A DNA stretch of 64,000 bases. Source: Pollutibacter soli. GTDB lineage: Bacteria; Bacteroidota; Bacteroidia; Chitinophagales; Chitinophagaceae. Each line of letters starts with the position of its first letter. Position 1 is the stretch's first letter. Positions 1,749-54,783 of the stretch are shown here, in pieces. Position numbers and translations under genes: made by a program. The stretch covers positions 372,001 through 436,000 of the forward strand of contig JARJHS010000004.1 of assembly GCA_029269725.1 (NCBI GenBank), read 5' to 3'. The notes beneath the pieces were generated by a model. The model saw only the letters and a list, made by a program, of their open reading frames with translations, was not told where the DNA came from and ran no database searches.

Positions 1749-1776
1749 GAACTATAAACTGCAAACCATCAACCGG
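1749..1776. repeat. Single heptad-periodic repeat arm in a convergent gap
   Basis: Four consecutive 7-bp units, GAACTAT AAACTGC AAACCAT CAACCGG, share the core AAC at the same phase. They end about 10 bp from the bshA stop codon (bshA is on the - strand). No clean partner arm was found near the EnvC stop, so this may be the remains of an inverted pair like those at 8.6, 31.2 and 40.6 kb. The rest of the 277-bp gap (1509-1785) shows nothing recognisable. Confidence 0.45.
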
Positions 1777-1785
1777 CTGTTCCAC

Positions 1786-2922
1786 CTATGAACTCGCAGT
1801 TGCCATCACAAACTTCTCATACAACTCCTCATACTGCGGAACAATATTATGAATATCAAATTTTAACGCCGATGCGCGTGCATTCTCTTTGAATTTCGCC
1901 AGCGTCTCATCATCTTTCAAAATCTGTTTGGAAAAGCGACTCATAGCTTCTACATCACCAACGGCTCCCATGAACCCATTATAACCAGGCTCGATAATTT
2001 CCGGTAAGCCACCTGCATCCGATGCAACAACAGGCGCTCCACCAGCCATCGCTTCCAATGCGCTTAATCCAAAACTTTCATATTCTGATGGAAGTAGAAA
2101 CAAATCGGAGATGGCATACATTTCTTCCATATCCTGTTGTTTCCCGAGGAAACGAACATCATCACAAACACCGAGTTCACGACAAAGCTCTTCAGCCATC
2201 GGCCGTTCAGGGCCATCACCCACCAATAACATTTTTGAAGGAATCTCCTTCTGGATTTTATAGTATAGATAAATAACGTCGGCGATCCTTTTTATTTTTC
2301 TGAAGTTCGATGCGTGGAGAATAATTCTTTCTCCATGGGGGGCAATCACTTTACGAAATGCATCAATCGGTTTCTTGCTGAAGCGTTTGATGTCAACAAA
2401 ATTGTAAATGACTTCAATATCCTTTTCAATATTGAAATTCGCATACGTCTGTTCGCGCAGGTTCTGCGATACAGCAGTAATCGCATCACTCTGGTTGATA
2501 GAAAATGCAACCACAGGTGCGTAGGTCTTATCCTTCCCAACGAGCGTGATATCCGTTCCGTGAAGCGTTGTGATTACTGGTATGCGTCGACCTTCCTGCT
2601 CGAGAATTTTCTTGGCCATATACGCCGCAGCCGCATGCGGAATCGCGTAATGTACATGCAGCAGGTCGAGATTATTGTTGCGAATAACATCCACCATTGT
2701 ACTGGCTAATGCAGTTTCATAAGGCGGAAAATCAAAAAGCGGGTAGGTCGGAACCCGCACTTCATGATAATAAATATTTGGCGTAAATCCTGTAAGTCTT
2801 ACTGGCTGCTGATAAGTGATAAAGTGGATATTATATCCCTTATCGGCTAACGCTTTTCCCAACTCTGTTGCCAACACACCACTGCCTCCAAAAGTTGGAT
2901 AACAGACGATCCCTATATTCAT
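1786..2922 (-). CDS. bshA: N-acetyl-alpha-D-glucosaminyl L-malate synthase BshA (bacillithiol synthesis, step 1)
   Basis: 378 residues from the ATG at 2922. It is a GT-B fold family 4 glycosyltransferase that joins GlcNAc from UDP-GlcNAc to L-malate in the cytoplasm, the first step of bacillithiol synthesis. The N-terminus IGIVCYPTFGGSG followed by ATELGKALA is highly characteristic of BshA. The C-terminal half has the EX7E-type donor site (YESFGLSALEAMAGGAP). An in-frame TTG at 2955 would add 11 residues, but a TATTTTTG -7 box lies across it (2953-2960), and homologues start at MxIGIVCYP, so 2922 is preferred. bshB and bshC are not in the window. Confidence 0.93.
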   Translation of the reverse strand: MNIGIVCYPTFGGSGVLATELGKALADKGYNIHFITYQQPVRLTGFTPNIYYHEVRVPTYPLFDFPPYETALASTMVDVIRNNNLDLLHVHYAIPHAAAAYMAKKILEQEGRRIPVITTLHGTDITLVGKDKTYAPVVAFSINQSDAITAVSQNLREQTYANFNIEKDIEVIYNFVDIKRFSKKPIDAFRKVIAPHGERIILHASNFRKIKRIADVIYLYYKIQKEIPSKMLLVGDGPERPMAEELCRELGVCDDVRFLGKQQDMEEMYAISDLFLLPSEYESFGLSALEAMAGGAPVVASDAGGLPEIIEPGYNGFMGAVGDVEAMSRFSKQILKDDETLAKFKENARASALKFDIHNIVPQYEELYEKFVMATASS

Positions 2923-2952
2923 TTGATTACTGGGTTTAAATAAATCAATAGG

Positions 2953-2960
2953 CAAAAATA
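2953..2960 (-). promoter_or_regulatory. Putative bshA promoter -7 box (TATTTTTG)
   Basis: Read on the minus strand the sequence is TATTTTTG, a perfect match to the Bacteroidota consensus TAnnTTTG. A TTG lies 23 bp further upstream as a possible -33 element. It is about 30 bp upstream of the ATG at 2922 and overlaps the alternative TTG start at 2955, which argues against that longer start. Confidence 0.5.
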
Positions 2961-3133
2961 ATTCCTTGTTTCCAGTCTGATATCAAGCCCGGCCTGTCGT
3001 TAATGGACAGACCAATATGTAAATGTAATTCTTAACCCTTAACCGTTTGAGTTTCCCTACAGCTGTTGGGGTTAGTATCCTTTTTTTCAGATTTCATTAA
3101 CATTTGGTATTTTTCTCCCTTAAATCGGCTGCT

Positions 3134-3499: not shown

Positions 3500-3519
3500 T
3501 CTCCAGAACAATTTAAGGA

Positions 3520-4908: not shown

Positions 4909-4918
4909 GCTCGGATAA

Positions 4919-5620: not shown

Positions 5621-5636
5621 GGGGAATATTCAGGGA

Positions 5637-6398: not shown

Positions 6399-6489
6399 GC
6401 CCCAGGTTTTTAAATATTAGGGTATTAGATAAAAACTAGCTATTTTTCTTTTCAAACTTAAGGCTTTTTACAGCAGAAAACGATACTCA

Positions 6490-7119
6490 TTGAAAAAACT
6501 GGATGCGGGATTTTATCAACGGGCTGATCTTTTACAGATTTCGAAAGACCTGTTAGGTAAATTGATAGTCACCAACTGGGATGGTGAGAAAACGATCGCG
6601 AGAATTGTTGAAACGGAAGCGTATGAGGGTATTGGTGATAAAGCGGCCCACTCCTATGGTGATCGGAGGACGTCTCGTACCGAAGTCATGTACAATGCCG
6701 GAGGCCTGGCCTATGTCTATCTCTGTTATGGCATTCACCATCTGTTTAATGTTGTGACTAACTCAGCAGGAATTCCCCATGTGGTTTTAATTCGCGCAGT
6801 GGAACCGGTGGAAGGCCTCACGTATATGGCAAAACGAATCGGAAGAAATGACCATGTACATCGACTGGGTGCCGGACCTGGGAAGCTCACCAAAGCCTTG
6901 GGTATTTCGGTTCAGCATACCGGCATTTCTTTGACAGGAAATAAAATATACCTCGCAGATGACGGATACAAATTGATGCAGAATGAAATAGTTGCATCTC
7001 CGCGCATAGGTGTCGATTATGCTGGAGATCACGCATTATGGCCCTATCGATTTATGATAAAAGATCATCTCAGCATCAGCGTTAAAACAAAAAGTATTTC
7101 AAACCTGGAAATTTCATGA
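6490..7119 (+). CDS. DNA-3-methyladenine glycosylase (AAG/MPG family)
   Basis: 209 residues, the usual size for the bacterial family. It excises 3-methyladenine, hypoxanthine and related lesions in base excision repair. Motifs: LGKLIV near the N-terminus, IVETEAYEG with the catalytic Glu, AHSYGDRRTSRTEVMY, AYVYLCYGIHHLFNVVT, and GPGKLTKALGI. The start codon is TTG (MKKLDAGFYQR); no in-frame ATG is available before conserved sequence. Its stop overlaps the start of the DASS transporter (ATGA at 7116-7119), indicating translational coupling, although no functional link is obvious. Confidence 0.93.
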   Translation: MKKLDAGFYQRADLLQISKDLLGKLIVTNWDGEKTIARIVETEAYEGIGDKAAHSYGDRRTSRTEVMYNAGGLAYVYLCYGIHHLFNVVTNSAGIPHVVLIRAVEPVEGLTYMAKRIGRNDHVHRLGAGPGKLTKALGISVQHTGISLTGNKIYLADDGYKLMQNEIVASPRIGVDYAGDHALWPYRFMIKDHLSISVKTKSISNLEIS

Positions 7120-8582
7120 ATCTGAACTTTATTTCCGGAAGATTTTACAAATTCTTTTCCTTCTGGCTGGGGCCTGCATTGTTTTTTATTTTCCTGTTGT
7201 TTAATCCTTTGGATCTTGAGCCAAAAGCCGTAAAAGTAATTGCTATTGCTGCATTGATGATTACCTGGTGGATAGGGGAAGCATTGCCGATGCCGGCAGT
7301 TGCACTGATACCGTTGGTGCTGTTCCCGTTAATGAATATCAATACCATCAGCAAAACAGCCGCACCATATGCCAATGAAGTGATATTTCTTTTCATGGGT
7401 GGATTCATGATCGGACTCGCTATTGAGAAATGGAATCTGCATAAAAGAATCGCACTAAGTATTGTAAAACTCACGGGGACCAGTGGGGACAGAATCATTC
7501 TTGGATTTATTCTTTCTACAGGGTTTATCAGTATGTGGCTGAGTAATACTGCCACTACCATGATGATGTTTCCCATCGCAGCCTCGGTAATATCTGTCGT
7601 ACAAACCAACACTTCCGACAAACAGAAAGCAGCATATTTTTCCCTTTCCATCATGTTATCTATTGCCTACGCATCGAATTTCGGCGGCATCGCTACCATC
7701 ATAGGTACCCCTCCGAATGTGGCATATGCATCTTTCATCAACAAACATTACAATTACGATATTTCATTTGCACAATGGATGATCATCTGTACACCAATTG
7801 CAGTTCTTTTGTTGTTATCGCTTTATATCGTGATGGTGAAATGGCTCTACCCCAACCGTATTGCAGCGAGTGAAGAAATGAAGAATATGATTCATTCAAA
7901 TCTAAAAGAGTTGGGACCAATGACGGTTCCTGAAAAAAGAGTGCTCACTGTTTTCCTGATCACTGCCGGACTCTGGATAACAAAAGACCTGATTAATGAG
8001 TTGAAATTTTTCAGATTGGATGACAATATGATCGCTGTTTTTGGTGCACTGATGATGTTTATTCTGCCTGCAGGTGATAAGGAGAAAAAAGAGGAAAAGC
8101 TGCTCGACTGGTCAGACACAAAAAAAATGGCCTGGGGAATACTATTGCTTTTTGGAGGTGGTATCACATTGGCTAATGCATTACAGGATGCAGGTTTGAT
8201 TGAGTTGCTTGGAAAAGCGATCGCCGATTATTCCGGAACGAATCTTTTGCTTATAGTAATAGTTATTACTGTTGTATCCATATTTATGAGTGAAGTCATG
8301 AGCAATATTGCGCAGGTAATTGTGATCGCTCCGGTGGTAACAGGGATTGCAGAAGCGTTACACATAAATCCATTTATGTTGGGACTTCCGATGACCCTTG
8401 CAGCAAGTGCAGCATCAATGATGCCCATGGGAACACCGCCAAATGCGATTGTATTTGCCAGCGGATATATTCAACTGAAGCAAATGATTCGTGTAGGATT
8501 TGTGATGAATATGGTGAGTATAATATTGATTGTGCTGTTCTGCTATTTTGTTTTACCGCATATTATAACGCTGGGCAAGTAG
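7116..8582 (+). CDS. DASS/SLC13 family sodium-coupled anion transporter
   Basis: 488 residues and about 11-12 membrane segments. The two family signatures are visible: SNTATTMMMFPIA (around residue 142) with IIGTPPNVA, and the second-half repeat SEVMSNIAQVI with MPMGTPPNAIVFASG. These Ser-Asn-Thr and Gly-Thr-Pro-Pro-Asn elements form the sodium and substrate sites of dicarboxylate, citrate or sulfate carriers. The exact anion cannot be assigned. It overlaps the glycosylase by 4 bp and converges on the PorP/SprF-like gene; a heptad repeat element begins 7 bp after its stop. Confidence 0.92.
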   Translation: MNLNFISGRFYKFFSFWLGPALFFIFLLFNPLDLEPKAVKVIAIAALMITWWIGEALPMPAVALIPLVLFPLMNINTISKTAAPYANEVIFLFMGGFMIGLAIEKWNLHKRIALSIVKLTGTSGDRIILGFILSTGFISMWLSNTATTMMMFPIAASVISVVQTNTSDKQKAAYFSLSIMLSIAYASNFGGIATIIGTPPNVAYASFINKHYNYDISFAQWMIICTPIAVLLLLSLYIVMVKWLYPNRIAASEEMKNMIHSNLKELGPMTVPEKRVLTVFLITAGLWITKDLINELKFFRLDDNMIAVFGALMMFILPAGDKEKKEEKLLDWSDTKKMAWGILLLFGGGITLANALQDAGLIELLGKAIADYSGTNLLLIVIVITVVSIFMSEVMSNIAQVIVIAPVVTGIAEALHINPFMLGLPMTLAASAASMMPMGTPPNAIVFASGYIQLKQMIRVGFVMNMVSIILIVLFCYFVLPHIITLGK

Positions 8583-8588
8583 TGGGGC

Positions 8589-8842
8589 GTTCATCGTTTT
8601 TGGTTGTTCGTCCTTCGAAGTTTATGGTTGTTATTGAGCAGATAGTGTGATTAAATTATGTTTCCAGACCAGGAATTCAAATGCCCGTTAGTTAAGGCAT
8701 TAAGAAAAGCGAGATAGAATACGTAAAACAGACAACGTTAGAAAAGCGCTGCTTCCCCTGCTGTTGATGCTTGCACAAGAAATGTATCCGGGAGCACAAA
8801 CTTCATTTAGGAACGAGAAACGAACAACGAACAACGAACAAC
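8589..8842. repeat. Heptad-arm inverted element 1 (GTTGTTC units) filling a convergent gap
   Basis: Left arm 8589-8616 reads in 7-bp steps GTTCATC GTTTTTG GTTGTTC GTCCTTC. Right arm 8808-8842 reads TAGGAAC GAGAAAC and then GAACAAC three times; reverse-complemented this is GTTGTTC three times, then GTTTCTC and GTTCCTA. The two arms are therefore inverted copies of the same degenerate heptamer. Between them is about 190 bp of unique sequence without a convincing gene. The left arm starts 7 bp after the transporter stop and the right arm touches the PorP/SprF-like stop codon. Confidence 0.7.
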
Positions 8843-9852
8843 TAAAATTTCGGGCATCTCGTTTTCCTGTCCGTCCTGTCCGGCGGTACCCGCACATAGA
8901 TTAAAGAAACTTCCATTCCGCCACGACTATTGGAAGCTGTTTTCAGTGAAGATGTATTAAAGTCGTATGATACCCCAAGACGAAGTCCGCTGAACTCCAG
9001 TCCGAAATAAGGAATGATTGCGTCGTTGAACCTGTACCACAGACCTCCATACAGTTCTACAGGACTATCCTCGTCGTTTTTTACATTCTGCGAAACTGCT
9101 CCACCTAATACAGTTTCAGTTGCCCCGGCCTGGCGTTGATGGATGAAACTTCCGTGTACTGTTGTCCATTTTGCAACCGGAATGAATCCGCCACCATGAA
9201 TCGTTAGTCTTGGATTGAGAACAAAATTTCCGCCCTGGAACGATTCTTTGGGGCGATTAATATGATAAACAGAAGCACCGATGTAAAAGCTGTTATAACT
9301 GTTAGTCGTACCCGAATACATGATACCTGTATTCAGATCAAAATAATTGATACCCACCTGGCTGTTATTGAATACTTCTGAGGTAACACCGGTGAATCCG
9401 AGCGAAGTCAACTCATCTTCAAAATCAGCACGTGTAATATCAAGCCTTTTACTCGCATAGGTTCCCTGGAAACCAACAGTGATCTGGTGATAACCATTTT
9501 CATCGAGACCTTTATGATATGCAGTTGAAAGAGAAACAAAATTGTTGTTGAGAATCTTATTACCGCTCTGATCATTCAATCCCATGACACCAACACCCCA
9601 GGTATCATTTTCCGGAATACGGTTAACAAGAATGGGCATATCAAATGACACAGTAGCTGTTGTGAAGGCATTATTTATTGTTGGCCATTGATTGCGATAG
9701 TTACCGGCAAGCCTGAAATTACCATCGATCCTTCCCGTTAGTGCAGGATTCAAGGTAAGTGGCGAAGCAAAAAACTGAGAGAAATGCGGATCCTGGGCCC
9801 GAAGAGTTGAAACGAGCAGCACCATTACCACACATATTAGGATTGATTTCAT
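8842..9852 (-). CDS. PorP/SprF family type IX secretion system membrane protein
   Basis: 336 residues from the ATG at 9852; an upstream TTG at 9930 would run into upp and place 26 residues before the signal peptide. The signal peptide (MKSILICVVMVLLVSTLRAQ) is followed by DPHFSQFFASPLTLNPALTG, the family hallmark, and then alternating outer-membrane beta-barrel sequence ending near LGVSYDF. PorP/SprF proteins are 14-16 stranded barrels that partner T9SS or gliding components. This copy is next to upp, away from other T9SS machinery, and far from the four T9SS cargo genes at 45-58 kb. Confidence 0.9.
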   Translation of the reverse strand: MKSILICVVMVLLVSTLRAQDPHFSQFFASPLTLNPALTGRIDGNFRLAGNYRNQWPTINNAFTTATVSFDMPILVNRIPENDTWGVGVMGLNDQSGNKILNNNFVSLSTAYHKGLDENGYHQITVGFQGTYASKRLDITRADFEDELTSLGFTGVTSEVFNNSQVGINYFDLNTGIMYSGTTNSYNSFYIGASVYHINRPKESFQGGNFVLNPRLTIHGGGFIPVAKWTTVHGSFIHQRQAGATETVLGGAVSQNVKNDEDSPVELYGGLWYRFNDAIIPYFGLEFSGLRLGVSYDFNTSSLKTASNSRGGMEVSLIYVRVPPDRTDRKTRCPKF

Positions 9853-9889
9853 CTGGTGTTGATTAGCAAACAAAGTACAAAAATTAATC

Positions 9890-10540: not shown

Positions 10541-10671
10541 ACAAAAGTTCTAATTTCGGCCGGTAAACCCGCAAAACAAATCTAATTCGTTTGCAGGGTA
10601 TATCCTATGGATTTATAAAAAACTTAGGATTAGAACACTGGCTGAATCAGTAAATATTAAATCAGGACTAT

Positions 10672-11772: not shown

Positions 11773-11875
11773 TTTTAGATAAAAAATATCTCGAAATTCG
11801 CATAACCCGTATCTTATTAATATTTTGACGGGATGCTGTTCAGGCGTTAGTCAACGTTTAAAAAATCCTGCTGCC

Positions 11876-13650: not shown

Positions 13651-13688
13651 CAAAATTATTAATTAAACATCTTTCAATTCGGCCTTTC

Positions 13689-20000: not shown

Positions 20001-20546
20001 ATGATTGATGAACAGTTAATCATTGCAAATACTTTGGAATGGGTGAAGGTCGTTGTCATCGGTTGCAATTTTTGTCCTTTCGCATCAAAACCTGTCAATG
20101 AGGGAAAGGTTCGTTTTACAGTGAATTCCAACAAGAGCAGGGAAGCAGTTCTCGAACAGGTAATTCGGGAATGTTATCGTTTAGATGAAAGCGATGATAT
20201 CGAAACCAGCTTACTGATCATCCCGGAGGGATATGAGGACTTTGAAGATTTTTTGGAACTGTTGGATATGTCGGAGGAGTTGCTCGAGGACCAGGATTAT
20301 GAAGGGATCTATCAACTGGCCAGTTTTCATCCACAATACTTATTCGCCGGCTCTGATGAAAATGATCCCGCGAATTACACTAACCGGTCACCTTATCCGA
20401 TGTTGCATTTTTTAAGGGAATCCAGTGTTGAGAAGGTCTTGGAATTTTATAAGAATCCCGAAAAGATACCGGAAAACAACATTCGTTTTGCGCGGGAGAA
20501 AGGATTGCTGTTTATGCAACAGCTTTTAAAACCTGGCAGGTCTTAA
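20001..20546 (+). CDS. DUF1415 family protein
   Basis: 181 residues from the ATG at 20001, just after the permease; a TTG at 19986 would add five. Characteristic segments are TLEWVKVVVIGCNFCPFA, TSLLIIPEG, FLELLDMSEELL, YQLASFHPQYLFAG and NYTNRSPYPMLHFLRE. The family is widespread and uncharacterised; the conserved CNFCPFA and FHP motifs suggest a metal or redox role, but this is a guess. The last codons and the stop lie inside a 30-bp perfect palindrome (20530-20559), so the repeat supplies the C-terminal Pro-Gly-Arg-Ser. Confidence 0.88.
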   Translation: MIDEQLIIANTLEWVKVVVIGCNFCPFASKPVNEGKVRFTVNSNKSREAVLEQVIRECYRLDESDDIETSLLIIPEGYEDFEDFLELLDMSEELLEDQDYEGIYQLASFHPQYLFAGSDENDPANYTNRSPYPMLHFLRESSVEKVLEFYKNPEKIPENNIRFAREKGLLFMQQLLKPGRS

Positions 20547-20559
20547 GACCTGCCAGGTT
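20530..20559. repeat. Perfect 30-bp palindrome with AGGTCTTAAGACCT core (copy 1)
   Basis: The sequence is its own reverse complement around the central TTAA (half-site AACCTGGCAGGTCTT). It overlaps the 3' end and stop codon of the DUF1415 gene. It is the first of three related palindromes in this convergent gap. Confidence 0.85.
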
Positions 20560-20646
20560 GGAAATCGCAGCAACACTTCTAAAAGCAGCGACAATTCACT
20601 CCTGATAAAAAAAGGTATTGATTGTCAATGTCATTTTTTTTCAAAC

Positions 20647-20685
20647 ACCCCAACCTTGGGGGTCCTAGACCTCCCAGGTTGGGGT
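20647..20685. repeat. 39-bp imperfect palindrome, variant of the flanking copies (copy 2)
   Basis: Left arm ACCCCAACCTTGGGGGTC pairs with right arm GACCTCCCAGGTTGGGGT around the centre CTA, with one mismatch (T20657/C20675) and one G-T pair. The AACCT...AGGTT and GGTC...GACC elements resemble copies 1 and 3, but the sequence is GC-richer. Confidence 0.75.
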
Positions 20686-20735
20686 TGGCAGGGAATGACA
20701 AAAAAATCCATTTTAAGGAGCGTTCTGCAAAGAAC

Positions 20736-20763
20736 AACCTCGCAGGTCTTAAGACCTGCCAGG
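20736..20763. repeat. 28-bp near-perfect palindrome with AGGTCTTAAGACCT core (copy 3)
   Basis: The half-site ACCTCGCAGGTCTT is mirrored around TTAA with one mismatch (C20740/C20759). It shares the core GCAGGTCTTAAGACCTGC with copy 1 and ends 10 bp from the stop of the minus-strand PepSY gene. Copies 1 and 3 thus bracket the gap. Confidence 0.8.
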
Positions 20764-20773
20764 TCTTTATAGT

Positions 20774-30094: not shown

Positions 30095-30499
30095 ATGATG
30101 AAGGGAAGCCCACAGGAAATCTACCAGTTTTCCAGCCATTTCGATCATCAGTTCCTTAACGAGTTATATGGCGATGATATGAGATCAGCAGAAGAAGTAT
30201 TTCATTCGGCATTGATTCAGATTGACCAGGAAGTTTCAGAAGCAGAGAAACTCTTCAGAGAAAAAAACTTTACTGAGGTTCGGAAAATATTCCATCGGAT
30301 TAAACCTTTGTTTGGTTATGTAGGTCTGATGGAAGTCCAGGATAATATCCAGCAGTTTGAAGACAACTGTATTCATTTTCGTGATATCGGAAGTCTTGAA
30401 CTGGCATTTGAGAATGTGAAAACTATCGTTTGGGAAGCATCGGTTAAAATCAGTGAGGAAAAGGGTAAACTCAGCGATTATAACAAACAGCGTGCATGA
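30095..30499 (+). CDS. Hpt (histidine phosphotransfer) domain protein
   Basis: 134 residues, all helical. FTEVRKIFHRIKPLFGYVGLMEVQDNIQQFED matches the Hpt helix pair, with the phosphoacceptor in FHRIKP. It is a free-standing Hpt placed between a divergent hybrid kinase and a LytTR regulator, and overlaps the latter by 4 bp (ATGA). The likely job is to carry phosphate from the kinase receiver to the regulator. A second ATG follows immediately after the first. Confidence 0.82.
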   Translation: MMKGSPQEIYQFSSHFDHQFLNELYGDDMRSAEEVFHSALIQIDQEVSEAEKLFREKNFTEVRKIFHRIKPLFGYVGLMEVQDNIQQFEDNCIHFRDIGSLELAFENVKTIVWEASVKISEEKGKLSDYNKQRA

Positions 30500-31185
30500 A
30501 GTATTCAAGCGTAATCGTAGAAGATCTGCAGACGGCGGCTGATTTTCTAAGGAAGTTTTGTGAACGCAGTGGCCTGGTTGAGGTGCAGGCACATTTTCTC
30601 AATGCAGAAGATGCATTGAATTATTTATCCGAGAATTTAGTCGATCTGATATTCCTGGATGTTGAGATGCCCGGGGCAACGGGTTTTGATTTGATGGACC
30701 GGCTGGTATACACACCCCAGGTTATCCTCACTACATCAAAAACGGAATACGCCTACGATGCATTTCAGTACAACGTTACCGACTACCTGAAAAAGCCTTT
30801 CACTTATCAAAGATTTCTGGAAGCTTTGCAAAAAGTACAGGTAAAAAAAGAAGAAGAAGATTCATCTTCGGAGCGCGATCATATTTTTATTAAGTCTGAT
30901 GGCAAACTGATTCGCCTCAAAAACGATGATATCCTTTTCATTGAAAGCATGGGTGACTACGTAAAGTTCGTCACCGCGGAAAAAAAATACATCACGCACA
31001 ACACGATAAAAAACCTGGAAACAAAAGTTGATCCGTTGCGCTTTATGAAAGTGCACAGGTCTTATATCGTAAATCTTTCCCGCATCGATGATATCCAGGA
31101 GAATTCTTTGTATATCAAAGGAACCATGATCCCGATCAGTAAGGCGCACAAGGCGAGGGTAATGCAGAAACTGAATATAGTTTAA
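30496..31185 (+). CDS. LytTR family response regulator, partner of the Hpt protein
   Basis: 229 residues. Receiver at about 1-115 (VEDLQTAADFL, LIFLDVEMPGATGFDLM with the phosphoacceptor Asp, LTTSKTEYAYDAF, KKPF). LytTR domain at about 130-229 (HIFIKSDGKLIRLKNDDILFIESMGDYVKF, FMKVHRSYIVNLSRIDDI). It is translationally coupled to the Hpt gene. LytTR regulators are usually fed directly by LytS-type kinases; feeding through an Hpt from a hybrid HisKA kinase would be a less common wiring. Its stop is followed within 2 bp by a heptad repeat arm. Confidence 0.93.
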   Translation: MKYSSVIVEDLQTAADFLRKFCERSGLVEVQAHFLNAEDALNYLSENLVDLIFLDVEMPGATGFDLMDRLVYTPQVILTTSKTEYAYDAFQYNVTDYLKKPFTYQRFLEALQKVQVKKEEEDSSSERDHIFIKSDGKLIRLKNDDILFIESMGDYVKFVTAEKKYITHNTIKNLETKVDPLRFMKVHRSYIVNLSRIDDIQENSLYIKGTMIPISKAHKARVMQKLNIV

Positions 31186-31186
31186 T

Positions 31187-31312
31187 GTTGAACGTGTAAC
31201 GTTAAACGTTAGCCTCTGGTAATGTAAGGTCACTCAGGTCTTCAAACCAGCATTTCGGCAGCAGCATTCATCCGCAGACTCTACGTTCAACGTTCACCGT
31301 TTAACGTTTCAC
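31187..31312. repeat. Heptad-arm inverted element 2 (GTTAAAC/GTTGAAC units) filling a convergent gap
   Basis: Left arm 31187-31214 reads GTTGAAC GTGTAAC GTTAAAC GTTAGCC. Right arm 31285-31312 reads GTTCAAC GTTCACC GTTTAAC GTTTCAC; reverse-complemented it is GTGAAAC GTTAAAC GGTGAAC GTTGAAC. Seven-bp phase is unbroken in both arms. The core of about 70 bp is unique. The left arm begins 2 bp after the LytTR stop and the right arm covers the kup stop codon. Confidence 0.78.
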
Positions 31313-33288
31313 TCTTCGGTATTTATCCTTTGTAACCTCAGATTAGTAACCGGAGATACAATCAACGGGAATTTTTCCACCTTAACATTGCTGGGGTCAA
31401 GGCCAAAACCACGTTCTTCTGAAAGTGCGGTTTCTTTGAGCCAGAAATACAATTTCATTACAACTCTTTCCCAGAATGGAAGTTCATTATCCTGGCTCAG
31501 GAATTTTTCAAGTACTACAAATTCGAAATCGCCTACGATATTATTTCGCTGCAGACTTTCGTAGCGGCTGACGATATTGACTTCTTTATTGCTCACCATG
31601 TCTTCAACCACTTTTCTGAACATCAGGTTGATTCTCGGTTCAATCCTGAAACCAAGCCTGAATTCAACACGGATAACTTCGTTTGGAATAATGGTTTGTA
31701 CTTCGTACTCGCATGTATATGGATCATCCAGCGTGTCCACATGTACAAACCAGTAAATATCCGCGCGCTTAGGTTTTTTATTGAGGATCGAGTGTATGAT
31801 CTTATGCTCAATCTCTTTTGGATTATTTGCGCTCGTCAAATAAATAAGATGCGTTGAATATTTGTTGATCGTAGCATCGTTACTGAGTTCCTGAAGCAAC
31901 GGCAGATAATGATCCAGACGAACGAACTCCACGTAACGGTTCTTGATCTTTCTTGATCTGTACCAGATATACATAACAAGAAACATCAGCATACCGACAA
32001 GAAGGGTGATATATCCTCCATGCGTAAACTTCTGCAGCAGTGCTACCAGGAAGAGTATTTCTATACTGAGGTAGGAAAGGAGAAATACATAGATCAGCAC
32101 GGGCCTTACGCGATGTAATACAAGGAAGTTTGCAAACAAAATTGTTGTTGCCAGCATAGTCATAATAATAGCAAGACCATAGGCCGCTTCCATACGTGAA
32201 GATTCACGGAAATACAGCACCACACCACAACAGCCAATAAAAATGAGGTTGTTCAATGATGGTATGAACAATTGTCCCTTGGCCTCCGAAGGATAATTGA
32301 TTTTTAATCTTGGCCAAAGATTAAGTCGGATAGCTTCACTGATCAGTGTAAATGATCCGCTGATCATTGCCTGGCTCGCAATAATTGCAGCAGAGGTTGC
32401 AATGATCACTCCGATCAGTACAAACCATTCCGGCATCATATCGTAAAAGGCATTAATGTTCAGTTGCTCTTTCAATGCATTTGTTATATGTAAACCCTTC
32501 CTTGTTGCAAGAAGATTTGCACCCTGGCCAAGGTAGTTAAGCAACAGGCAGGACTTCACAAAAATCCAGGATATCCTGATATTTCCGCGACCGCAATGCC
32601 CGAGATCGCTGTACAAAGCTTCGGCCCCTGTCGTACAAAGGAAAATTGCACCCAGCAGCCAGATCGCATTCGGATGCTCCGAGATCAGCTGAAATGCATA
32701 ATAAGGATTGAATGATTTAAAGATTGCACCATAATCTGCCAGATGGATTACGCCCAGTATCGCAATGGTAGAAAACCAGATAAACATGATAGGCCCAAAC
32801 AATTTACCTATTGATGCAGTGCCGAATTGTTGAAGAAAAAAGAAAAGACCCATAATACCCAACACGATGTATACAATGGTGTCTTTCGAGATATTATGAA
32901 GCCGGGGAATATTTTTAAGACCTTCAATAGCAGAAGTGATAGAAATAGGAGGGGTAATGATTCCATCGGCAAGAAGCGCTGAACCTCCAATCATTGCCGG
33001 AATCACCAACCACTTTCGCCGGCGCCGGACAAGAGCATAGAGTGCAAAAATTCCACCCTCCCCACGATTGTCAGCCCGAAGTATAAGGATTACATATTTG
33101 ACTGTAGTCTGTAAAGTGATCGTCCAGATGATACACGACAGACTTCCGATGATCAGGTCTTCAGTTATGACCCTGTCAGTAATAATTGAATTAAATACAT
33201 ACAATGGGGAAGTACCAATATCTCCGTAAATGATCCCTAAGGCGATCAGGAGTCCTGCTCCTGTTACCTTATTCAGATTTGTGCCCAC
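31309..33288 (-). CDS. kup: KUP family potassium transporter
   Basis: 659 residues, typical length. The N-terminal signature LGIIYGDIGTSPLYVFNSI, the loop DNRGEGGIFALYAL and 12 membrane helices up to about residue 455 identify Kup/HAK/KT, which imports K+ with protons. A cytoplasmic C-terminal domain of about 200 residues follows. The start is GTG at 33288 (GTG GGC ACA AAT), about 43 bp downstream of a TACCTTTG -7 box. The stop codon lies inside the right arm of the heptad element. Confidence 0.93.
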   Translation of the reverse strand: MGTNLNKVTGAGLLIALGIIYGDIGTSPLYVFNSIITDRVITEDLIIGSLSCIIWTITLQTTVKYVILILRADNRGEGGIFALYALVRRRRKWLVIPAMIGGSALLADGIITPPISITSAIEGLKNIPRLHNISKDTIVYIVLGIMGLFFFLQQFGTASIGKLFGPIMFIWFSTIAILGVIHLADYGAIFKSFNPYYAFQLISEHPNAIWLLGAIFLCTTGAEALYSDLGHCGRGNIRISWIFVKSCLLLNYLGQGANLLATRKGLHITNALKEQLNINAFYDMMPEWFVLIGVIIATSAAIIASQAMISGSFTLISEAIRLNLWPRLKINYPSEAKGQLFIPSLNNLIFIGCCGVVLYFRESSRMEAAYGLAIIMTMLATTILFANFLVLHRVRPVLIYVFLLSYLSIEILFLVALLQKFTHGGYITLLVGMLMFLVMYIWYRSRKIKNRYVEFVRLDHYLPLLQELSNDATINKYSTHLIYLTSANNPKEIEHKIIHSILNKKPKRADIYWFVHVDTLDDPYTCEYEVQTIIPNEVIRVEFRLGFRIEPRINLMFRKVVEDMVSNKEVNIVSRYESLQRNNIVGDFEFVVLEKFLSQDNELPFWERVVMKLYFWLKETALSEERGFGLDPSNVKVEKFPLIVSPVTNLRLQRINTEE

Positions 33289-38670: not shown

Positions 38671-40575
38671 ATGCGAAAACTTCTGCTCTTTCTATTGCTT
38701 TCAGGTTTCTGCGCTTCCGGTTTATTTGCACAGGATTCTTCAGCATATCAATGGAGCGTTTCAAGCATAAAAAAAGAGAATGGACTGTACACTTTAGAAT
38801 TCAGTACCGAGGGAAATAAAAGCTGGGATCTTTTTGCACCCGAAGCGATGTTCGATGATATTAATTCGGGCACTCTTCAACTATCAGACTCTTCTATTAA
38901 GATTGTCAGACCGCTCAGTGCTATCGGTGAAGGACAAGCGATAACGAGTCCGCTTTTTCCGGATAAGCAATACAAGGTTTATAACGGCCCGGCAAAATTT
39001 TCTGTGGATGTCAAAATCGGGGGAACTGTTCCCGCCGTATTACTTGGTACACTTCAATTTACCTATGGGAAAGGAGAATCATTTTATCCGCTGGAGTCCT
39101 GGCCTTTTGAAGTGGCACTGGAGGGAGGTGTTGTTGCAAACAATAAGATTCTCATTCCGTCAATCGATATAAAAAAGCCTCTGCAGGAATGTGGAAAGTC
39201 AACAGCGTCAAATGAGAAAAGTCTTTTTACCATTTTTATCCTCGGATTTCTTGGTGGACTTGTGGCATTGCTGACGCCTTGTGTATTTCCGATGATTCCA
39301 TTGACTGTATCATTTTTTACAAAGAAAGCCGGTAAATCCAATGCAATACTTTACGGAGCATTTATTTTCCTGATCTATTCTGCATTGAGTATTCCGTTTC
39401 ACATTATCGGGACAGTTAGTCCGACGATCTATAATGACATCGCCACTAATATTTATCTGAACGTCATATTCTTTATCATTTTCATCGTTTTTGCGATTTC
39501 GTTTTTTGGCTATTTCGAAATCACATTGCCAGGTTCAGTGGCCAACCGGGCAAATGCGAAGCAGGGTTCAAATCTGGTCGGAATATTTTTCATGGCACTC
39601 ACATTGGTGATCGTGTCTTTTTCATGTACAGGTCCCATACTTGGTACATTACTCGTGGGTAGTGCGAGTGAAGGTGCCTGGCCATTGACTGCAGGCCTTG
39701 CAGGATTTGGACTTGCTCTGGGATTACCTTTTGCGCTGTTTGCATTATTCCCGCATTGGCTTCAGAATTTACCGAAAAGTGGTGGTTGGTTGAATACCGT
39801 TAAAGTGGTCCTCGGTTTTATCGAGCTGGCGCTGGCTTTGAAGTTTTTGTCAAATGCAGATCTGGTTGCGCATTGGGGCATATTGAAGAGAGAATTGTTT
39901 TTTGCCCTCTGGGTATTGATATTCCTCGGACTTTTCATTTACCTGATGGGGTGGTTGCGTTTTCCTCACGATGATCCTTCGAAGAAGCCTGGATTAGCAA
40001 GAAAGTTATTTGCATTTTTTGTACTGGCCTTCACCTTATATATTTTACCGGGAGTTACCAATACCAGGTACGCGAATATTGGATTGGTGAGCGGGTTCCC
40101 GCCTCCGCATTGCTACAGTCTTTATTCCAACCCGATAAATTGTGAAGAGCCGTTGATGGATTATGCGGAAGCATTGAAAGTTGCAAAAGAAACAAATAAG
40201 CCAATAATGATCGATTTCACGGGTTGGGCCTGCGTGAACTGCAGAAAAATGGAAGAGAATGTCTGGCCAGATCCCGGGGTAAAAGAGTTAATGGAGAAAT
40301 ATGTACTTGTTTCTCTTTATGTCGATGACAAAAAACAATTACCTGCGGCTGAGCAATTTGTATATACTTCAAAAGACGGTACTGAACGGAAGATCAGAAC
40401 TGTGGGAGACAAATGGAGTACTTTCCAGACAGAAAATTTCAATGCCAGTTCTCAGCCCTGGTATGTACTGATCAGTAATAAAGAAATTCTACTCACACCA
40501 CCAGTCGGGTATACGCCTGATAAAACCGAATTTTCGGAATGGCTTCGTTGCGGACTCGATGCCAATGGAAAATAA
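38671..40575 (+). CDS. dsbD: Thiol:disulfide interchange protein DsbD (alpha domain without its Cys pair)
   Basis: 634 residues. Signal peptide 1-20; N-terminal alpha-like domain to about residue 155; eight membrane segments (about 185-455); C-terminal thioredoxin domain (about 490-634). The membrane cysteines are in ALLTPCVFPMIPLTVSFF and VSFSCTGPILGTLL, and the thioredoxin site is WACVNC at about 518-523, with the cis-Pro in SSQPWYVL. In the N-terminal domain the place of CxxxxCLPP reads GKGESFYPLES: both cysteines are gone. The enzyme would move electrons from cytoplasmic thioredoxin outward. Confidence 0.93.
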   Translation: MRKLLLFLLLSGFCASGLFAQDSSAYQWSVSSIKKENGLYTLEFSTEGNKSWDLFAPEAMFDDINSGTLQLSDSSIKIVRPLSAIGEGQAITSPLFPDKQYKVYNGPAKFSVDVKIGGTVPAVLLGTLQFTYGKGESFYPLESWPFEVALEGGVVANNKILIPSIDIKKPLQECGKSTASNEKSLFTIFILGFLGGLVALLTPCVFPMIPLTVSFFTKKAGKSNAILYGAFIFLIYSALSIPFHIIGTVSPTIYNDIATNIYLNVIFFIIFIVFAISFFGYFEITLPGSVANRANAKQGSNLVGIFFMALTLVIVSFSCTGPILGTLLVGSASEGAWPLTAGLAGFGLALGLPFALFALFPHWLQNLPKSGGWLNTVKVVLGFIELALALKFLSNADLVAHWGILKRELFFALWVLIFLGLFIYLMGWLRFPHDDPSKKPGLARKLFAFFVLAFTLYILPGVTNTRYANIGLVSGFPPPHCYSLYSNPINCEEPLMDYAEALKVAKETNKPIMIDFTGWACVNCRKMEENVWPDPGVKELMEKYVLVSLYVDDKKQLPAAEQFVYTSKDGTERKIRTVGDKWSTFQTENFNASSQPWYVLISNKEILLTPPVGYTPDKTEFSEWLRCGLDANGK

Positions 40576-40975
40576 GGCAGGAGTAAGGAGAGGGAGGCAG
40601 GAGAGTTAGTTTGTAGCGATAAGCATAGCAAAAGAAGACCTGCTTTTCTGCTGATAGGCAGATACCTGTTCATCAACTGCCGGCTGTGTCTATTGTCTGC
40701 AGTCTACTGTTTGCCGATGATAAGTTTAAAAGAACCAGAAGATAAGATTAAGCCATATCAGGTGCATTTACCCTAATGAAATTACGAAGTGCATATCTAC
40801 ACTCAACCGCCGGCTGTTTGTATTGTCTACGTTTACTATTTGCCGATGATAAGCCAAAAGAAGAACCAGAAGATAAGATCAAGCCATATCAGGTGCGTTT
40901 ACCCTAATGAAATTACGAAGTGCATTTCTACACTCAACCGCCGGCTGTTTCTCCTGCCTGCGAACGCCTGCCTGC
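40575..40975. repeat. Heptad-arm inverted element 3 (AGGCAGG units) with a tandem duplication inside
   Basis: Left arm 40575-40605 has AGGCAGG AGTAAGG AGAGGG AGGCAGG (one unit is 6 bp). Right arm 40953-40975 has CCTGCCT GCGAACG CCTGCCT; CCTGCCT is the exact reverse complement of AGGCAGG. The left arm starts on the last base of the dsbD stop codon. The interior holds a tandem repeat of about 130 bp and further 7-bp periodic runs (TGTCTAT TGTCTGC AGTCTAC TGTTTGC at 40687-40714). Confidence 0.7.
40665..40950. repeat. Tandem duplication, period about 130 bp, two copies plus a partial third
   Basis: Copy 1 begins near CGGCTGTGTC at 40681, copy 2 at CGGCTGTTTG (40811), and a partial third at CGGCTGTTTC (40942). 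From AGATAAGAT (40739 and 40870) to CCGCCGGCTGT the copies differ at only three of about 78 positions. Each copy ends in ACCCTAATGAAATTACGAAG followed by TGCAT. No coding frame is conserved between the copies, so this is non-coding DNA in the gap between dsbD and the ECF sigma gene. Confidence 0.85.
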
Positions 40976-40978
40976 TAA

Positions 40979-51663: not shown

Positions 51664-54552
51664 ATGTTTCCAAAACTTCCTGCGTACAAAAACCTGACAT
51701 TAACTTTTGTTGCATTAATGTCACTACAAATTGCTATAGCCCAAACCAATCTTTGGGATGGGTCTGCAGATAATAATTGGAATAACCCTGCGAACTGGTC
51801 TTTGAATGTTGTGCCAGTTGCTAAATCAAACGTCGTAATTCCAATCAATGCAAACATCGTTGTCAACGTTGCATTACCTGTTTTTAAAAGTCTCACGATC
51901 TCAAACAATTCTACAGTCGTTCTGAATGCACTGACAACAAACAGAACCATCAGTCTACAGAACACCGGATTGGCACTTAATATTCAATCGGGCAGTACCC
52001 TTACACTACAGGGAACCACGACTGAATTCTTTATGATCAGGTATATCGGAACAGCGAGCACAGCGATCATTGCCGGAACACTTAATCTCGGAACTGCAGG
52101 AGCAGGCGGAGGGTATGGTGCATCAAATGCAGTTACGACAGTTACCGGAAAAATGTCACTCCTTAAAGGCCGCATAAGTACAACTGTTGAGACGGAACTG
52201 ATCTTTGGCGATGGCGGAATTTATGAACATCATATTACTGGAGGTTTCATACCTGCCGCAACTTGGGATGCGAATTCTCTTGTAGATCTGATTGGAACGA
52301 TCGCTGATCTTCCAACCGGTTTCAACCAGGTGTTTGGAAATCTTGCTTTTCATAATACATTGACAAGACCAGTATTCTTAAACTCTGATATTTTCGCACA
52401 AAGTAATTTCACCGTCAATAACAGCGGACCCTACATCATGGGTCTTACGAATCATACCGCACCCAGCGCTATGATAGTGGGTGGCAATTTTGTGATGAAT
52501 TCCGGAATCTTTGCATTGGTACAGAATGCTTCAGATGGCTCACTGGATGTAGGAGGAAATCTGATAGTCAATGGTGGTACATTTGACGCTAAACGTTTTT
52601 CAGGTGCCGCCAATATCAATGTCTTCGGTAACCTTGAGATCAATGGTGGAGTATTTAACCTTCGTGCAGTAAATGGAAATGGTTCCACTTCCACTTTGTC
52701 GGTTTTCACCAACTACATACAAACCGCAGGAACATTGAATCTGAATAGTGTTATAAACAGCTCTACAGTATTTAATCTTTATGGTGATTTCATGCTCAAC
52801 GGAGGTACGTTAACAGAAAGTGGTGCTGGTACGAGTAATGGGCAGATTTTCTTCGGAGGGTTTATTCAGAATTATCACAAAGGCGGAACAACACCGGCAA
52901 GCGCAATTATCAATTATACTGTTAATGAAGGGTCAGTATTACAGTTTGCTGATAATTCTACCATCAGTGGTGCTGGAACGTTCACCAACCTCATTAATTC
53001 GACCATTGGTGTTAAACACCCGCAGGGTATTTCAACAACAGGCGCAACAGGCCAGATCCAGGTAACGGGAACAAGAACTTATGCAGCAGGTGCCAACTAT
53101 ATTTATAATGGAACAGCAAACCAGGTGACTGGTACTGGTCTTACGCAAAATACAATTGCTTTCCTGACAATTGATAATCCCGGAAATACAGTGACACTTT
53201 CAGCTCCAACTGAAGTGAGTGCGGATCTGGTAATCAATGCAGGAAATTTCAATCTGAATAATAATAATTTAACCCTCGGAGGAGAATATTATAATAACGA
53301 TGTTATTACTCCAGGTACTGCAAAAGTTATTTTGAACGGAGCAGGGATACAGACCCTCGGTGGAAATGTATCATCAACGTTCTATATTCTTGAGCTGGCA
53401 AAAACATCAGGCAGCGTATTGCTTGGCATTGACCAGTTTGTATCAAATACTTTGAACATTGATGTTATCCTTGATCTGGGAACTTTCAACCTGACGATGG
53501 GGAATACTGCACAGGCGATTGGTACACTGACGGGCACTTTCGACGAAACAAAAATGATTGTATCTACCGGTGGCGGCCAGTTGAGAAAAAGCGCAACCAA
53601 TGCTGCTCAGGCAACATACGGTTTCCCGATTGGAGATATTGATGGTACCCCTGAGTTTTCACCTGCCGGAATATTATTTTCCGGAGGTAGTTATAATGGT
53701 TGGGTTGGTGTAACAGTAGTGAATCAGAAGCATCCGAATAATGGGAACAACACTGACTATCTAAACAGGTACTGGACAGTAGATCAAAACGGATTTTCTG
53801 GTTTTACTGCAACGGTTGGTTTCAACTTTGTGCCTGCTGATGTGGTTGGAACGGAAACCGAAGTTCGTCTCGGGCAATGGGAAGGAAATGAACCATGGGT
53901 GCGTTACGATCCTTCATTGATTGATCCGCAAAATTTATTAACAGCTACAGTTACGCAATTCAGTGACTTCACAGGCTTAAGTGTTTCTGAAGCATTGCCG
54001 ATTCATTTTGGTTCAATCCGGGGCTGGGCAGTCAACAATAATTCAATAGCTGTTGAGTGGAAGATCCTTGGTGAAACGGGAACTTCACATTATGAAGTAG
54101 AAAAGTTGGTTAGCGCAAACAACTTTGCGAAAATCGGATCACAGAACGCTTCGAACAGCGGCCTGGATGAGACTTATACCTTTACTGATGTGAATCCCGC
54201 AAGTGGCGATAATTTCTACCGGATCAAAGGCATCGAACTAACCGGTGAAATTACCTACAGCCCTGTTGTTAAAGTGAAATTGAATGGTTCTTCTGCAAGG
54301 GAGATGAAGATTTATCCGAACCCGATCAGGAACAGCAACCTTGCAATATCACTTCAGAATTTCAAATCAGGCAAGTATGATGTTGTGATCAGTAACAACA
54401 ACGGACAAATCATTCACAACAGCAAAATCAACCAGGTTGGTCCGAATACAATCGTGAATATTCAATTGAATCCAACACTTTCGAAAGGAATTTACCGATT
54501 GAGGATCACCAACGGAGAAGATACCTACCTGAGCAGTTTTGCAAAGGAGTAA
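51664..54552 (+). CDS. Large secreted protein with T9SS type A sorting domain (paralogue 3)
   Basis: 962 residues. Signal peptide at about 1-26 (ending QIAIAQ). The G8-like start is NLWDGSADNNWNNPANWSLNVVP ... NVVIPINAN. Beta repeats follow (NFVMNSGIFAL, LIVNGGTFDAK, LEINGGVFNLR). The shared core has GVKHPQGISTTGATGQIQ, ANYIYNGTANQVTGTGL, AKVILNGAGIQTLGG, KHPNNGNNTDYLNRYWTV and VTQFSDFTGL. A fibronectin-like segment precedes the sorting domain MKIYPNPIRNSNLAISLQ ... LSKGIYRLRITNGEDTYLSSFAKE. This sorting domain is nearer to that of paralogue 4 than to those of 1 and 2. Confidence 0.88.
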   Translation: MFPKLPAYKNLTLTFVALMSLQIAIAQTNLWDGSADNNWNNPANWSLNVVPVAKSNVVIPINANIVVNVALPVFKSLTISNNSTVVLNALTTNRTISLQNTGLALNIQSGSTLTLQGTTTEFFMIRYIGTASTAIIAGTLNLGTAGAGGGYGASNAVTTVTGKMSLLKGRISTTVETELIFGDGGIYEHHITGGFIPAATWDANSLVDLIGTIADLPTGFNQVFGNLAFHNTLTRPVFLNSDIFAQSNFTVNNSGPYIMGLTNHTAPSAMIVGGNFVMNSGIFALVQNASDGSLDVGGNLIVNGGTFDAKRFSGAANINVFGNLEINGGVFNLRAVNGNGSTSTLSVFTNYIQTAGTLNLNSVINSSTVFNLYGDFMLNGGTLTESGAGTSNGQIFFGGFIQNYHKGGTTPASAIINYTVNEGSVLQFADNSTISGAGTFTNLINSTIGVKHPQGISTTGATGQIQVTGTRTYAAGANYIYNGTANQVTGTGLTQNTIAFLTIDNPGNTVTLSAPTEVSADLVINAGNFNLNNNNLTLGGEYYNNDVITPGTAKVILNGAGIQTLGGNVSSTFYILELAKTSGSVLLGIDQFVSNTLNIDVILDLGTFNLTMGNTAQAIGTLTGTFDETKMIVSTGGGQLRKSATNAAQATYGFPIGDIDGTPEFSPAGILFSGGSYNGWVGVTVVNQKHPNNGNNTDYLNRYWTVDQNGFSGFTATVGFNFVPADVVGTETEVRLGQWEGNEPWVRYDPSLIDPQNLLTATVTQFSDFTGLSVSEALPIHFGSIRGWAVNNNSIAVEWKILGETGTSHYEVEKLVSANNFAKIGSQNASNSGLDETYTFTDVNPASGDNFYRIKGIELTGEITYSPVVKVKLNGSSAREMKIYPNPIRNSNLAISLQNFKSGKYDVVISNNNGQIIHNSKINQVGPNTIVNIQLNPTLSKGIYRLRITNGEDTYLSSFAKE

Positions 54553-54586
54553 TATTTAGAAGAACTTGGTAGAAATAATCTTAATC

Positions 54587-54617
54587 AATAGGCTGCATTA
54601 ATGCGGCCTATTTTTTT
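54587..54617 (+). terminator. Intrinsic terminator of T9SS cargo gene 3
   Basis: Stem AATAGGC-T-GCAT / ATGC-G-GCCTATT with a tiny TA loop and one mismatch, followed by five further Ts. It starts 35 bp after the stop. Confidence 0.85.
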
Positions 54618-54701
54618 ATGTACAACTTACCTGAGGCATGCCTGAATAAAATTCAGGTCATATTTTAAATAAGGCTTGCTGTTTAAGCGAGGGCAGTTAG
54701 C

Positions 54702-54783
54702 GTTTTTCATTTTTTCGTTCATCGTTGTTCGTTGAAGAAGTGTGATTTGCAGAAATGTAGAATAAAGAATACAAAGTACAACT
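54702..54783. repeat. Heptad-periodic element 4 in a convergent gap (weaker)
   Basis: Left run 54702-54737: GTTTTTC ATTTTTTC GTTCATC GTTGTTC GTTGAAG (one unit is 8 bp). Right run 54760-54780: GAATAAA GAATACA AAGTACA. The units GTTCATC and GTTGTTC are the same as in element 1 at 8.6 kb. The right run is heptad-periodic, but its unit pairs only loosely with the left run. Confidence 0.5.

Follow-up and report, generated by a model that had tools for sequence, protein, structure and literature searches.

Heptad arrays between genes of Pollutibacter soli as probable arms or remnants of small S23p insertion elements

The 64,000-nucleotide stretch of the Pollutibacter soli genome analysed here (the window; positions 372,001 to 436,000 of contig JARJHS010000004.1) carries arrays of degenerate 7-bp units, or heptads, in gaps between genes, which raises the question of what these arrays are and how they came to lie there. 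An original prediction had described five of them as a class of inverted elements in gaps between convergent genes and had listed a mobile hairpin among their possible roles. We consider it probable that the arrays are the terminal arms, or the decayed remains, of small insertion elements that encode one S23p protein (PF05635). At the gene junctions of related plasmids, the S23p-coding form is either wholly there or wholly missing, and usually lies directly after a stop codon; the step from such elements to the arrays of the window, which has no S23p gene, is one that we infer.

A complete element would consist of an inverted heptad arm, a single S23p gene (encoding a four-helix-bundle protein) and a second inverted heptad arm, spanning about 400-510 bp where measured. 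Many intergenic arrays in the genome of the window (G000, 6.1 Mb) may then be S23p-less copies or remnants of such elements, with S23p binding or recognizing the arms and thereby aiding non-coding copies to move in trans, and with later 7-bp slippage growing and shrinking the arrays. Insertion just after a stop codon would be tolerated because both genes are spared, and the downstream gene would also be spared if the stem were cut from the transcript, as the stems of intervening sequences (IVS) in 23S rRNA are cut by RNase III according to excerpts of PMC4990558.

S23p genes, their heptad arms and insertion as a unit

The link to S23p began with an armed gap of Chitinophaga that contained a gene identified as 23S_rRNA_IVP. 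When seven genomes were searched for PF05635, 25 matches were found in six of them; the seventh, C. eiseniae, had no match and carries few arrays over the compared stretch (2 versus 18 and 13). Two matches were left out for want of an intact open reading frame (ORF), leaving 23 Bacteroidota loci. An array lies no further than 200 bp away on at least one side of 18 of them, and 9 are bracketed by matched inverted arms. Other genes with matched arms on both sides numbered 4 of 940 on C1 (a 1,175,171-bp contig of the window's genome), 1 of 315 on C23 (a 400-kb check set fetched after C1), 2 of 288 in the order-level relative G056, and none of 108, 97 and 117 in G060, G061 and G062, or 7 of 1865 when pooled. 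In genome G020 the count was 4 of 234, and S23p genes make up two of these four. For the four genomes with both counts, matched arms were found at 5 of 13 S23p genes versus 7 of 1768 others (P = 7e-9). At L265 and L276 the ORF picker settled on an adjacent ORF, and at L273 the start it chose engulfs the left arm; L273 and L276 are bracketed by eye and stand outside the count of 9. The thresholds used (11 or 13 nats, 200 bp, match 12) were set after the first data had been seen, some controls were run without length matching, and genes of genomes without annotation were called with a simple purpose-made caller.

A tblastn search of plasmids for S23p found 30 records, of which 28 bear cyanobacterial names, and we fetched 16 of the 30; several are related, so they do not amount to 16 independent cases. 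Arrays lie within 200 bp on both sides of 14 of these genes and on at least one side of 15, and the sole locus without a detected array, L328, has imperfect inverted arms by eye. In the 13 loci whose arms were compared, the inverted match reached at least 12 in 11, G exceeded C in the left arm in 11, and C exceeded G in the right arm in 12. Among other annotated genes on two of these plasmids, none of 57 has arrays on both sides and 14 have one on some side. The words differ from element to element (CAGGAGT, GGGAAAA, AGGGTGT, GGGAACA, GGTGACA and TTAGCTG, with GGAGGAC in Azospirillum). PF05635 was confirmed in all 15 proteins scanned from S23p loci, the Pfam scan named no catalytic domain in them, and 2gsc and 2rld are solved structural relatives. 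Among the seven genomes searched for the reverse transcriptase domain RVT_1, it was not found in G000, G020 and G056 and occurred once each in G033, G060, G061 and G062, so RNA copying by such an enzyme is not obligatory, and we dropped a reverse transcriptase as a required partner. In three plasmid loci (L328, L329 and L334), the S23p gene sits within a CRISPR-Cas operon, once between cas10 and cmr3 and in two plasmids between cas6 and cas4. Separately, a Y1_Tnp gene of G056 (L250, on contig C2, 1321-2167) is flanked by inverted GTTGCGG and AACTCGT arms, and other small genes may be bracketed as well.

Related plasmids without S23p provide the empty sites, and from them it follows that arm, gene and arm arrive as a single unit at gene junctions. 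Site 1 is empty in plasmid L342, where the sequence is AAAAAGTAATTAACAAATAAATATG, and occupied in L326, which reads AAAAA-GTAAT, element, GTAAT-TAACAAATAAATATG. The occupied form is longer by 428 bp net, and the 5-bp GTAAT, which contains the stop codon of the upstream gene, flanks the insertion on either side. L343 retains one arm and the start of S23p at this site, a solo-arm remnant of a coding copy. In a Nostoc operon of genes A, B and C, L330 has its element between A and B; the B-C junction is occupied in L336, by a different element, and each plasmid supplies the empty site for the other; ATG (3 bp) is repeated at the B-C insertion, with no clear repeat at A-B. The distance between stop and start codon is 513 bp in L331 versus 3 bp in L352, and L328/L353, L325/L351 and L335/L346 form further occupied and empty pairs. 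Non-coding copies are seen at two loci: in L337, a 182-bp non-coding element with heptad arms is nested within the S23p gene of another element whose empty form is L330, with no clear target duplication seen at this nested insertion, and by eye a non-coding armed element in L345 occupies the gap that holds S23p in L335 and L348. Arms differ in length by whole heptads between L326 and L327 and between L335 and L348, in one arm each time. One Nostoc plasmid locus (L337, 1449-2045) contains several nested heptad-armed insertions. Among the roles that had been proposed for the window's arrays, the mobile hairpin is thus the best supported, since armed S23p-coding copies insert as a unit.

Three observations connect these elements with the intergenic arrays of the window's genome. 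Its S23p elements share words with intergenic arrays (ACGTT words in L262, AACTATG in L267). In five genomes, the arms of 8 of 10 S23p elements best match the non-coding arrays of their own genome, the exceptions being L266, which matches a close sister genome, and L261; the pools compared are unequal, from 201 down to 23 arrays. Finally, the number of S23p genes correlates with that of AAC-type heptads (rho 0.34 over 60 genomes and 0.54 over the 37 of the genus, uncorrected for genome size, completeness and kinship). Together these support, without proving, the reading of the window arrays as gene-less copies or remnants.

Arrays of the window and its genome

Each gap of the window was scored for lag-7 self-similarity against 2000 dinucleotide-model shuffles, and inverted arms were scored against 1000 shuffles. 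The array class reported for the window is real at three of the five loci, which are significant on their own, and inverted pairs are significant at two of the five, where the original prediction had counted three clear pairs. Locus 8589-8842 scores 23.2 at lag 7 (none of 2000 shuffles as high) with inverted arms at P = 0.003. Its left arm (8588-8617; GTTGTTC/GTTCATC-like words, lag-7 score 9.4) is directly preceded by the stop of the plus-strand gene 7116-8582, a member of the sodium:sulfate symporter family (PF00939), and its right arm (8809-8845; GAACAAC words, carrying the score of 23.2) extends into the stop of the minus-strand PorP/SprF gene 8842-9825 (PF11751); the core between them (8618-8808) is without an S23p gene. 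Locus 31187-31312 scores 17.8 (none of 2000), and no shuffle of 1000 matched its inverted arms. Here the left arm (31180-31211; GTTGAAC/GTTAAAC words, score 13.6) overlaps the last codon and stop of the plus-strand gene 30496-31185, a LytTR response regulator by Pfam, a 68-bp core follows (31212-31279), and the right arm (31280-31317; ACGTTCA words, score 17.8) overlaps the stop of the minus-strand gene 31309-33288, a K+ transporter by Pfam.

The third significant locus stands as an array but not as a pair. Locus 54702-54783 scores 11.5 (P = 0.006 for the gap), and its arm (54703-54734; CGTTCATCGTTGTTCGTTG) is accompanied by an AT-rich lag-7 segment (54754-54781, also 11.5) that is a doubtful second arm, with an inverted match to the left arm that is not significant (P = 0.30). 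By blastn, the gap (54553-55290) clusters with eight gaps of C1 around a dispersed common core, and by eye the other copies have GAACAAC-type heptads at the position equivalent to that arm. The two remaining loci are not significant alone. At 40575-40975 (lag-7 score 7.3, P = 0.10; inverted arms P = 0.08), a possible left arm of AGGCAGG (40577-40606) follows the stop of a DsbD-like gene (38671-40575), whose product is most similar to one from a Chitinophagales bin (77% identity) and to those of Chitinophagaceae bins, and a possible right arm (CCTGCCTGC) lies at 40952-40977; the single array reported at 1749-1776 (AACTATAAACTGCAAACCATCAACC) scores 6.3 (P = 0.15; inverted arms P = 0.92). All window arrays that pass the test lie in convergent gaps, and one divergent gap contains a weak segment (3026-3047; score 9.5). 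The window is without a match to Rfam at the gathering score, a tRNA search of it found none, S23p is absent from it, and none of the genome's eight PF05635 matches is on its contig (C32). Two further repeats were seen in it. The 40575 gap contains a tandem duplication (40673-40952; 131-bp unit in 2.1 copies) whose unit includes CCGGCTGTTT, a motif found adjoining heptads elsewhere in the genome. In the convergent gap after 20546, a ACCTGCCAGGTC-type palindromic repeat (20526-20773) by eye resembles a dispersed C1 family (423285, 451107 and others) and is of a second extragenic type besides the heptads.

The period of 7 stands out across the genome. A period scan of C1 gave 136 segments over threshold at lag 7 and none at lags 5, 8 or 11; the other lags from 4 to 20 gave 1-18, apart from the harmonic lag 14 with 73, and the harmonic lag 21 gave 39. 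The higher counts among the other lags are mostly at multiples of 3, as expected of coding DNA. In the whole genome, GTTGTTCGTTGTTC is found 145 times and the reversed control word not once, and from C1 and C23 we extrapolate roughly 700-1000 arrays for the whole genome. Confinement to convergent gaps, as first described, is refuted as an exclusive rule and survives as an enrichment. Arrays occur in 35 of 147 convergent, 49 of 552 co-directional and 10 of 157 divergent gaps on C1, in 15 of 52, 28 of 181 and 8 of 56 on C23, and in 11 of 41, 30 of 177 and 8 of 44 in G056; per kb of gap, in the same order, this makes 1.81, 0.70 and 0.37 on C1, 1.64, 1.04 and 0.54 on C23, and 1.20, 1.25 and 0.58 in G056. 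Within genes lie 14 of 136, 7 of 65 and 1 of 60 arrays, respectively. The contact of arms with stop codons is borne out: array edges within 15 bp of a gene's 3' end exceeded uniform placement in convergent gaps (43 versus 21.3 on C1, 20 versus 8.5 on C23 and 10 versus 6.2 in G056) and in co-directional gaps (25 versus 15.9, 18 versus 10.8 and 20 versus 7.9), with no excess at the 5' ends of co-directional gaps (13 versus 15.5, 8 versus 10.7 and 5 versus 7.9). The class therefore prefers 3' sides and shuns divergent gaps and genes, and convergent gaps are not its exclusive home.

The heptad words are diverse, with AACGTNN the commonest and GTTGTTC, AACTATG, AGTAAGT, AGGCAGG, GAATACA and others beside it. 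In the 36 arrays of the AACGT class, positions 1-5 are conserved at 92-99%, position 6 at 73% and position 7 at 57%, a profile partly biased by a rotation picked to maximize AAC. That the two arms of an element use one unit, as first claimed, holds on C1 (inverted match versus permuted partners, P = 0.0002, 34 pairs) and in G056 (P = 0.002, 10 pairs), but on C23 (P = 0.07, 11 pairs) direct matches are as good as inverted ones (P = 0.02; mean 9.0 versus 8.1). Direct-orientation matches also exceeded permuted partners on C1 (P = 0.0002; mean 9.2, inverted 11.8), which like the excess on C23 speaks against a purely inverted relation and arises in part from the palindromic ACGT words; they showed no excess in G056 (mean 5.0 versus 13.3 inverted). 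Heptad order within paired arms was no better than in heptad-shuffled controls (10 above and 16 below in 26 pairs, 21 from G000 and 5 from G056), and this register test rules out a strict hairpin in the window's genome. Of 123 C1 arrays tested, 63 are alone in their gap, and 5 of those have a cryptic inverted match of at least 13. Convergent gaps with arrays fold with a mean z of -2.16 on C1, -2.51 on C23 and -3.82 in G056, versus -2.97, -2.01 and -2.83 for those without, and ordinary terminators show no clear deficit, occurring in 8 of 41 heptad versus 21 of 61 other convergent gaps on C1 and in 7 of 20 versus 9 of 23 on C23; some inter-arm cores of G000 include a terminator of their own by eye. 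The proposed role as double-strand terminators or insulators thus finds no consistent support in this genome.

The most marked regularity of the arrays is a polarity: those without ACGT words have more G than C at the left of a gap and more C than G at the right, whatever the gene orientation. With C1, C23 and G056 combined, the odds ratio reaches 24 for convergent, 8.5 for co-directional plus, 5.3 for co-directional minus and 12 for divergent gaps, and solo arrays follow the same rule (33.6 on C1, 19.5 on C23 and 4.7 in G056). As this polarity tracks the side of the gap and not the direction of genes, it points to a two-armed element over a gene tag. In five C1 gaps (49235, 245921, 260331, 771011 and 1161753; L031-L089), composite arrays combine GGCAATA, GAATACA, GAAAACT, CTGGCTGTT, GAACAAC or AACTAAG, GACAACT and AACTATG, in an order that by eye seems kept across unrelated gaps. 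Two other candidates were set aside. A single family of miniature inverted-repeat transposable elements with a common core does not fit an all-against-all intergenic comparison that gave few core families, the largest covering 10 of 612 gaps. An all-frame stop cassette was rejected as a general reason, for 3'-end arms stopped more sense frames than shuffled ones on C1 (2.31 versus 1.81) and C23 (2.32 versus 1.75) but fewer in G056 (0.93 versus 1.28).

Weighing the origins of the arrays

The main rival, which we hold to be unlikely, is that arms extend ordinary 3'-end hairpins outward, by slippage and template switching across the stem, and are kept because they end or shield transcripts. Chitinophaga argues for it. 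There, 24 of 25 arm pairs are in register (17 pairs come from pattern-picked loci and 8 from syntenic stretches, 7 of these 8 above controls), so that the matching of arms by gene conversion or selection for pairing, proposed for the window and not found in the 26 pairs of G000 and G056, is clear in that genus. Armed loci fold with a mean z of -12.1 versus mononucleotide shuffles, and the flanking sequence is rich in A ahead of the arms (3.6 of 8) and in T behind them (3.6 of 8), compared with 2.8 and 2.4 on C1; the 20 loci were sampled from pattern hits and hence are not random. Pattern counts per strand differ sharply among the Chitinophaga relatives (81, 1, 124 and 0). Three Chitinophaga species with protein identities near 90% were compared over 96 orthologous gaps, and 15 of these contain heptads in one species or more; one gap has AGCTNNT arms in one species, GAATTAC arms in another and none in others, and at one orthologous gap an inner GACC..GC stem is seen by eye in three species, one armless and two with different words. 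Such stable stems with modest A/T flanks are not present in the window's genome, where arms are out of register, about half of the C1 arrays are solitary (the 63 of 123 above), convergent gaps with arrays show no consistent gain in foldability, and a terminator is seen by eye within some cores. Growth from terminators also leaves unexplained the arms that bracket S23p and the whole units missing from related plasmids. The Chitinophaga hairpins suggest that some arms were later retained as terminators, or began as such.

Neutral slippage by 7, with repeats persisting wherever DNA is unconstrained, strikes us as improbable. Excerpts of PMC4692102 describe both the over-representation of heptamers and the slippage idea, arrays are depleted within genes, and length changes by whole heptads are seen. 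Such slippage does not account for the polarity by gap side that the three pooled data sets show in every orientation, for the words shared by paired arms, for 3'-end abutment at twice the uniform expectation in the convergent gaps of C1, or for the uneven conservation of AACGTNN units, subject to the rotation bias given above. Least probable is that pre-existing arrays serve S23p elements as landing sites. The cas6-cas4 gap of L347 contains an AATTACG array without S23p where L329 and L334 carry the gene, as that idea would have it, but the empty sites of L342, L344 and L352 are heptad-free by eye, and arms and gene appear together.

Several observations weigh against deriving the arrays from S23p elements, which we nonetheless prefer. 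The window's genome has 8 S23p genes for its many hundreds of arrays; of these 8, two are bracketed by matched arms, L274, L277 and L282 are without a nearby array, L283 has one about 340 bp away, L285 has one arm and L279 a weak one. G022 has 422 heptad hits with no S23p found, and G046 and G054 carry 6 and 5 S23p genes with no AAC-type heptads by the search pattern. With one best S23p taken from each of 20 Bacteroidota genomes, an array was present on at least one side in 10, on both sides in 3, and as matched arms in 2. A short target repeat is seen at two sites only (5 and 3 bp), with none clear at the others, and the in-register match of cyanobacterial arms was not above heptad-shuffled arms (5 above and 5 below, of 11). 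Polarity fails in the co-directional minus gaps of C23 (odds ratio 0.67); array-free gaps show a weaker polarity of the same sign in most sets, equally strong in the divergent gaps of G056 (12.7) and reversed in its convergent gaps (0.14). Insertion alone also leaves unexplained the Chitinophaga hairpins with locus-specific, pairing inner stems.

More tentatively, and with somewhat less confidence than we would need to favour it, S23p with inverted heptad arms may define a tiny kind of mobile element that is widespread, occurring in Bacteroidota, Cyanobacteriota and at least one alphaproteobacterium. The IVS of 23S rRNA would be its rRNA-inserted members, and the scattered intergenic heptameric repeats known for decades its non-coding copies and footprints; S23p would move these in trans, with no known transposase and no reverse transcriptase being obligatory. 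This would join two puzzles, the heptameric repeats that fill the intergenic DNA of some bacteria and the role of the S23p protein and the 23S rRNA IVS. If true, heptad arrays are footprints of an element without a recognized recombinase that fits between a stop and a start codon, and a repeat class of obscure origin would be explained as the ends or leftovers of a tiny one-gene mobile element. The old question of IVS as mobile elements, which excerpts of PMC4990558 ascribe to Ralph and McClelland (1993), becomes testable outside rRNA.

Comparison with known systems

In integron attC sites, the motif runs RYYYAAC ... GTTRRRY with the AAC side first, and by eye our paired loci mostly have the reverse order, GTT-type first and AAC-type last, the ACGT class being palindromic. 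Repetitive extragenic palindromes (REP) and the hairpins built from them (REPIN), with their REP-associated tyrosine transposase (RAYT, Y1_Tnp), are extragenic, high in copy number, palindromic and mobile in trans, features that the heptad arrays share or, for mobility in trans, may share. They are characterized by a single conserved palindrome per genome that bears a tetranucleotide tag; here, many words are seen per genome. A RAYT partner was rejected: among five genomes searched, Y1_Tnp was not found in three, all Chitinophaga and two of them array-rich, and 1 of 11 Y1_Tnp loci is arm-bracketed. A repeat family around a Y1_Tnp gene of C1 (1116558-1119458) is possibly a classic REP-RAYT pair apart from the heptads. 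Avd of diversity-generating retroelements resembles S23p through weak matches to bAvd (PF22296), under its cut-off, in 5 of the 15 S23p proteins scanned, and differs in that RVT_1 was not found in the three genomes named above.

Among the known heptameric intergenic repeats are the STRR of cyanobacteria, and like these the arrays here are tandem 7-bp units that are mostly intergenic. Excerpts of PMC4692102 and PMC4679880 describe GGGAATC in Xanthomonas, GGGGA(C/T)T in Nostoc, and TAACTGA in Beggiatoaceae, cyanobacteria and five Bacteroidetes, and in those excerpts the repeats are tied neither to S23p nor to unit insertion. A TAACTGA-type array is also present in the window's genome (C1:83186). 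MacGregor, in the excerpts concerned, emphasizes start codons, whereas stops are preferred here and words differ by element. In the titles and abstracts of the open-access literature, among the matches listed, no paper was found that ties S23p to intergenic heptad arrays, and PMC4990558 alone was found to combine S23p with heptamers. Each of the two, heptameric repeats and IVS with an S23p gene, is known; the literature searched yielded no case of their union in an insertion element that lies between protein genes.

A close likeness is to the 23S rRNA IVS. The Coxiella IVS, compared here from its description in excerpts of PMC4990558, is 428 nt long, has a 28-bp stem at its termini and carries heptameric repeats ahead of the S23p ORF. 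Both kinds have an S23p gene between inverted repeats, which are present as terminal repeats in 11 of 13 plasmid loci and 9 of 23 Bacteroidota loci. Among the plasmid loci, the annotated ones (all but L339) sit among protein genes and not in helices 9, 25 or 45 of 23S rRNA; these elements work like IVS but, lying outside rRNA, are not filed as such. What sets them apart is that their arms are heptad arrays with element-specific words, and that in the genome of the window arrays far outnumber S23p genes.

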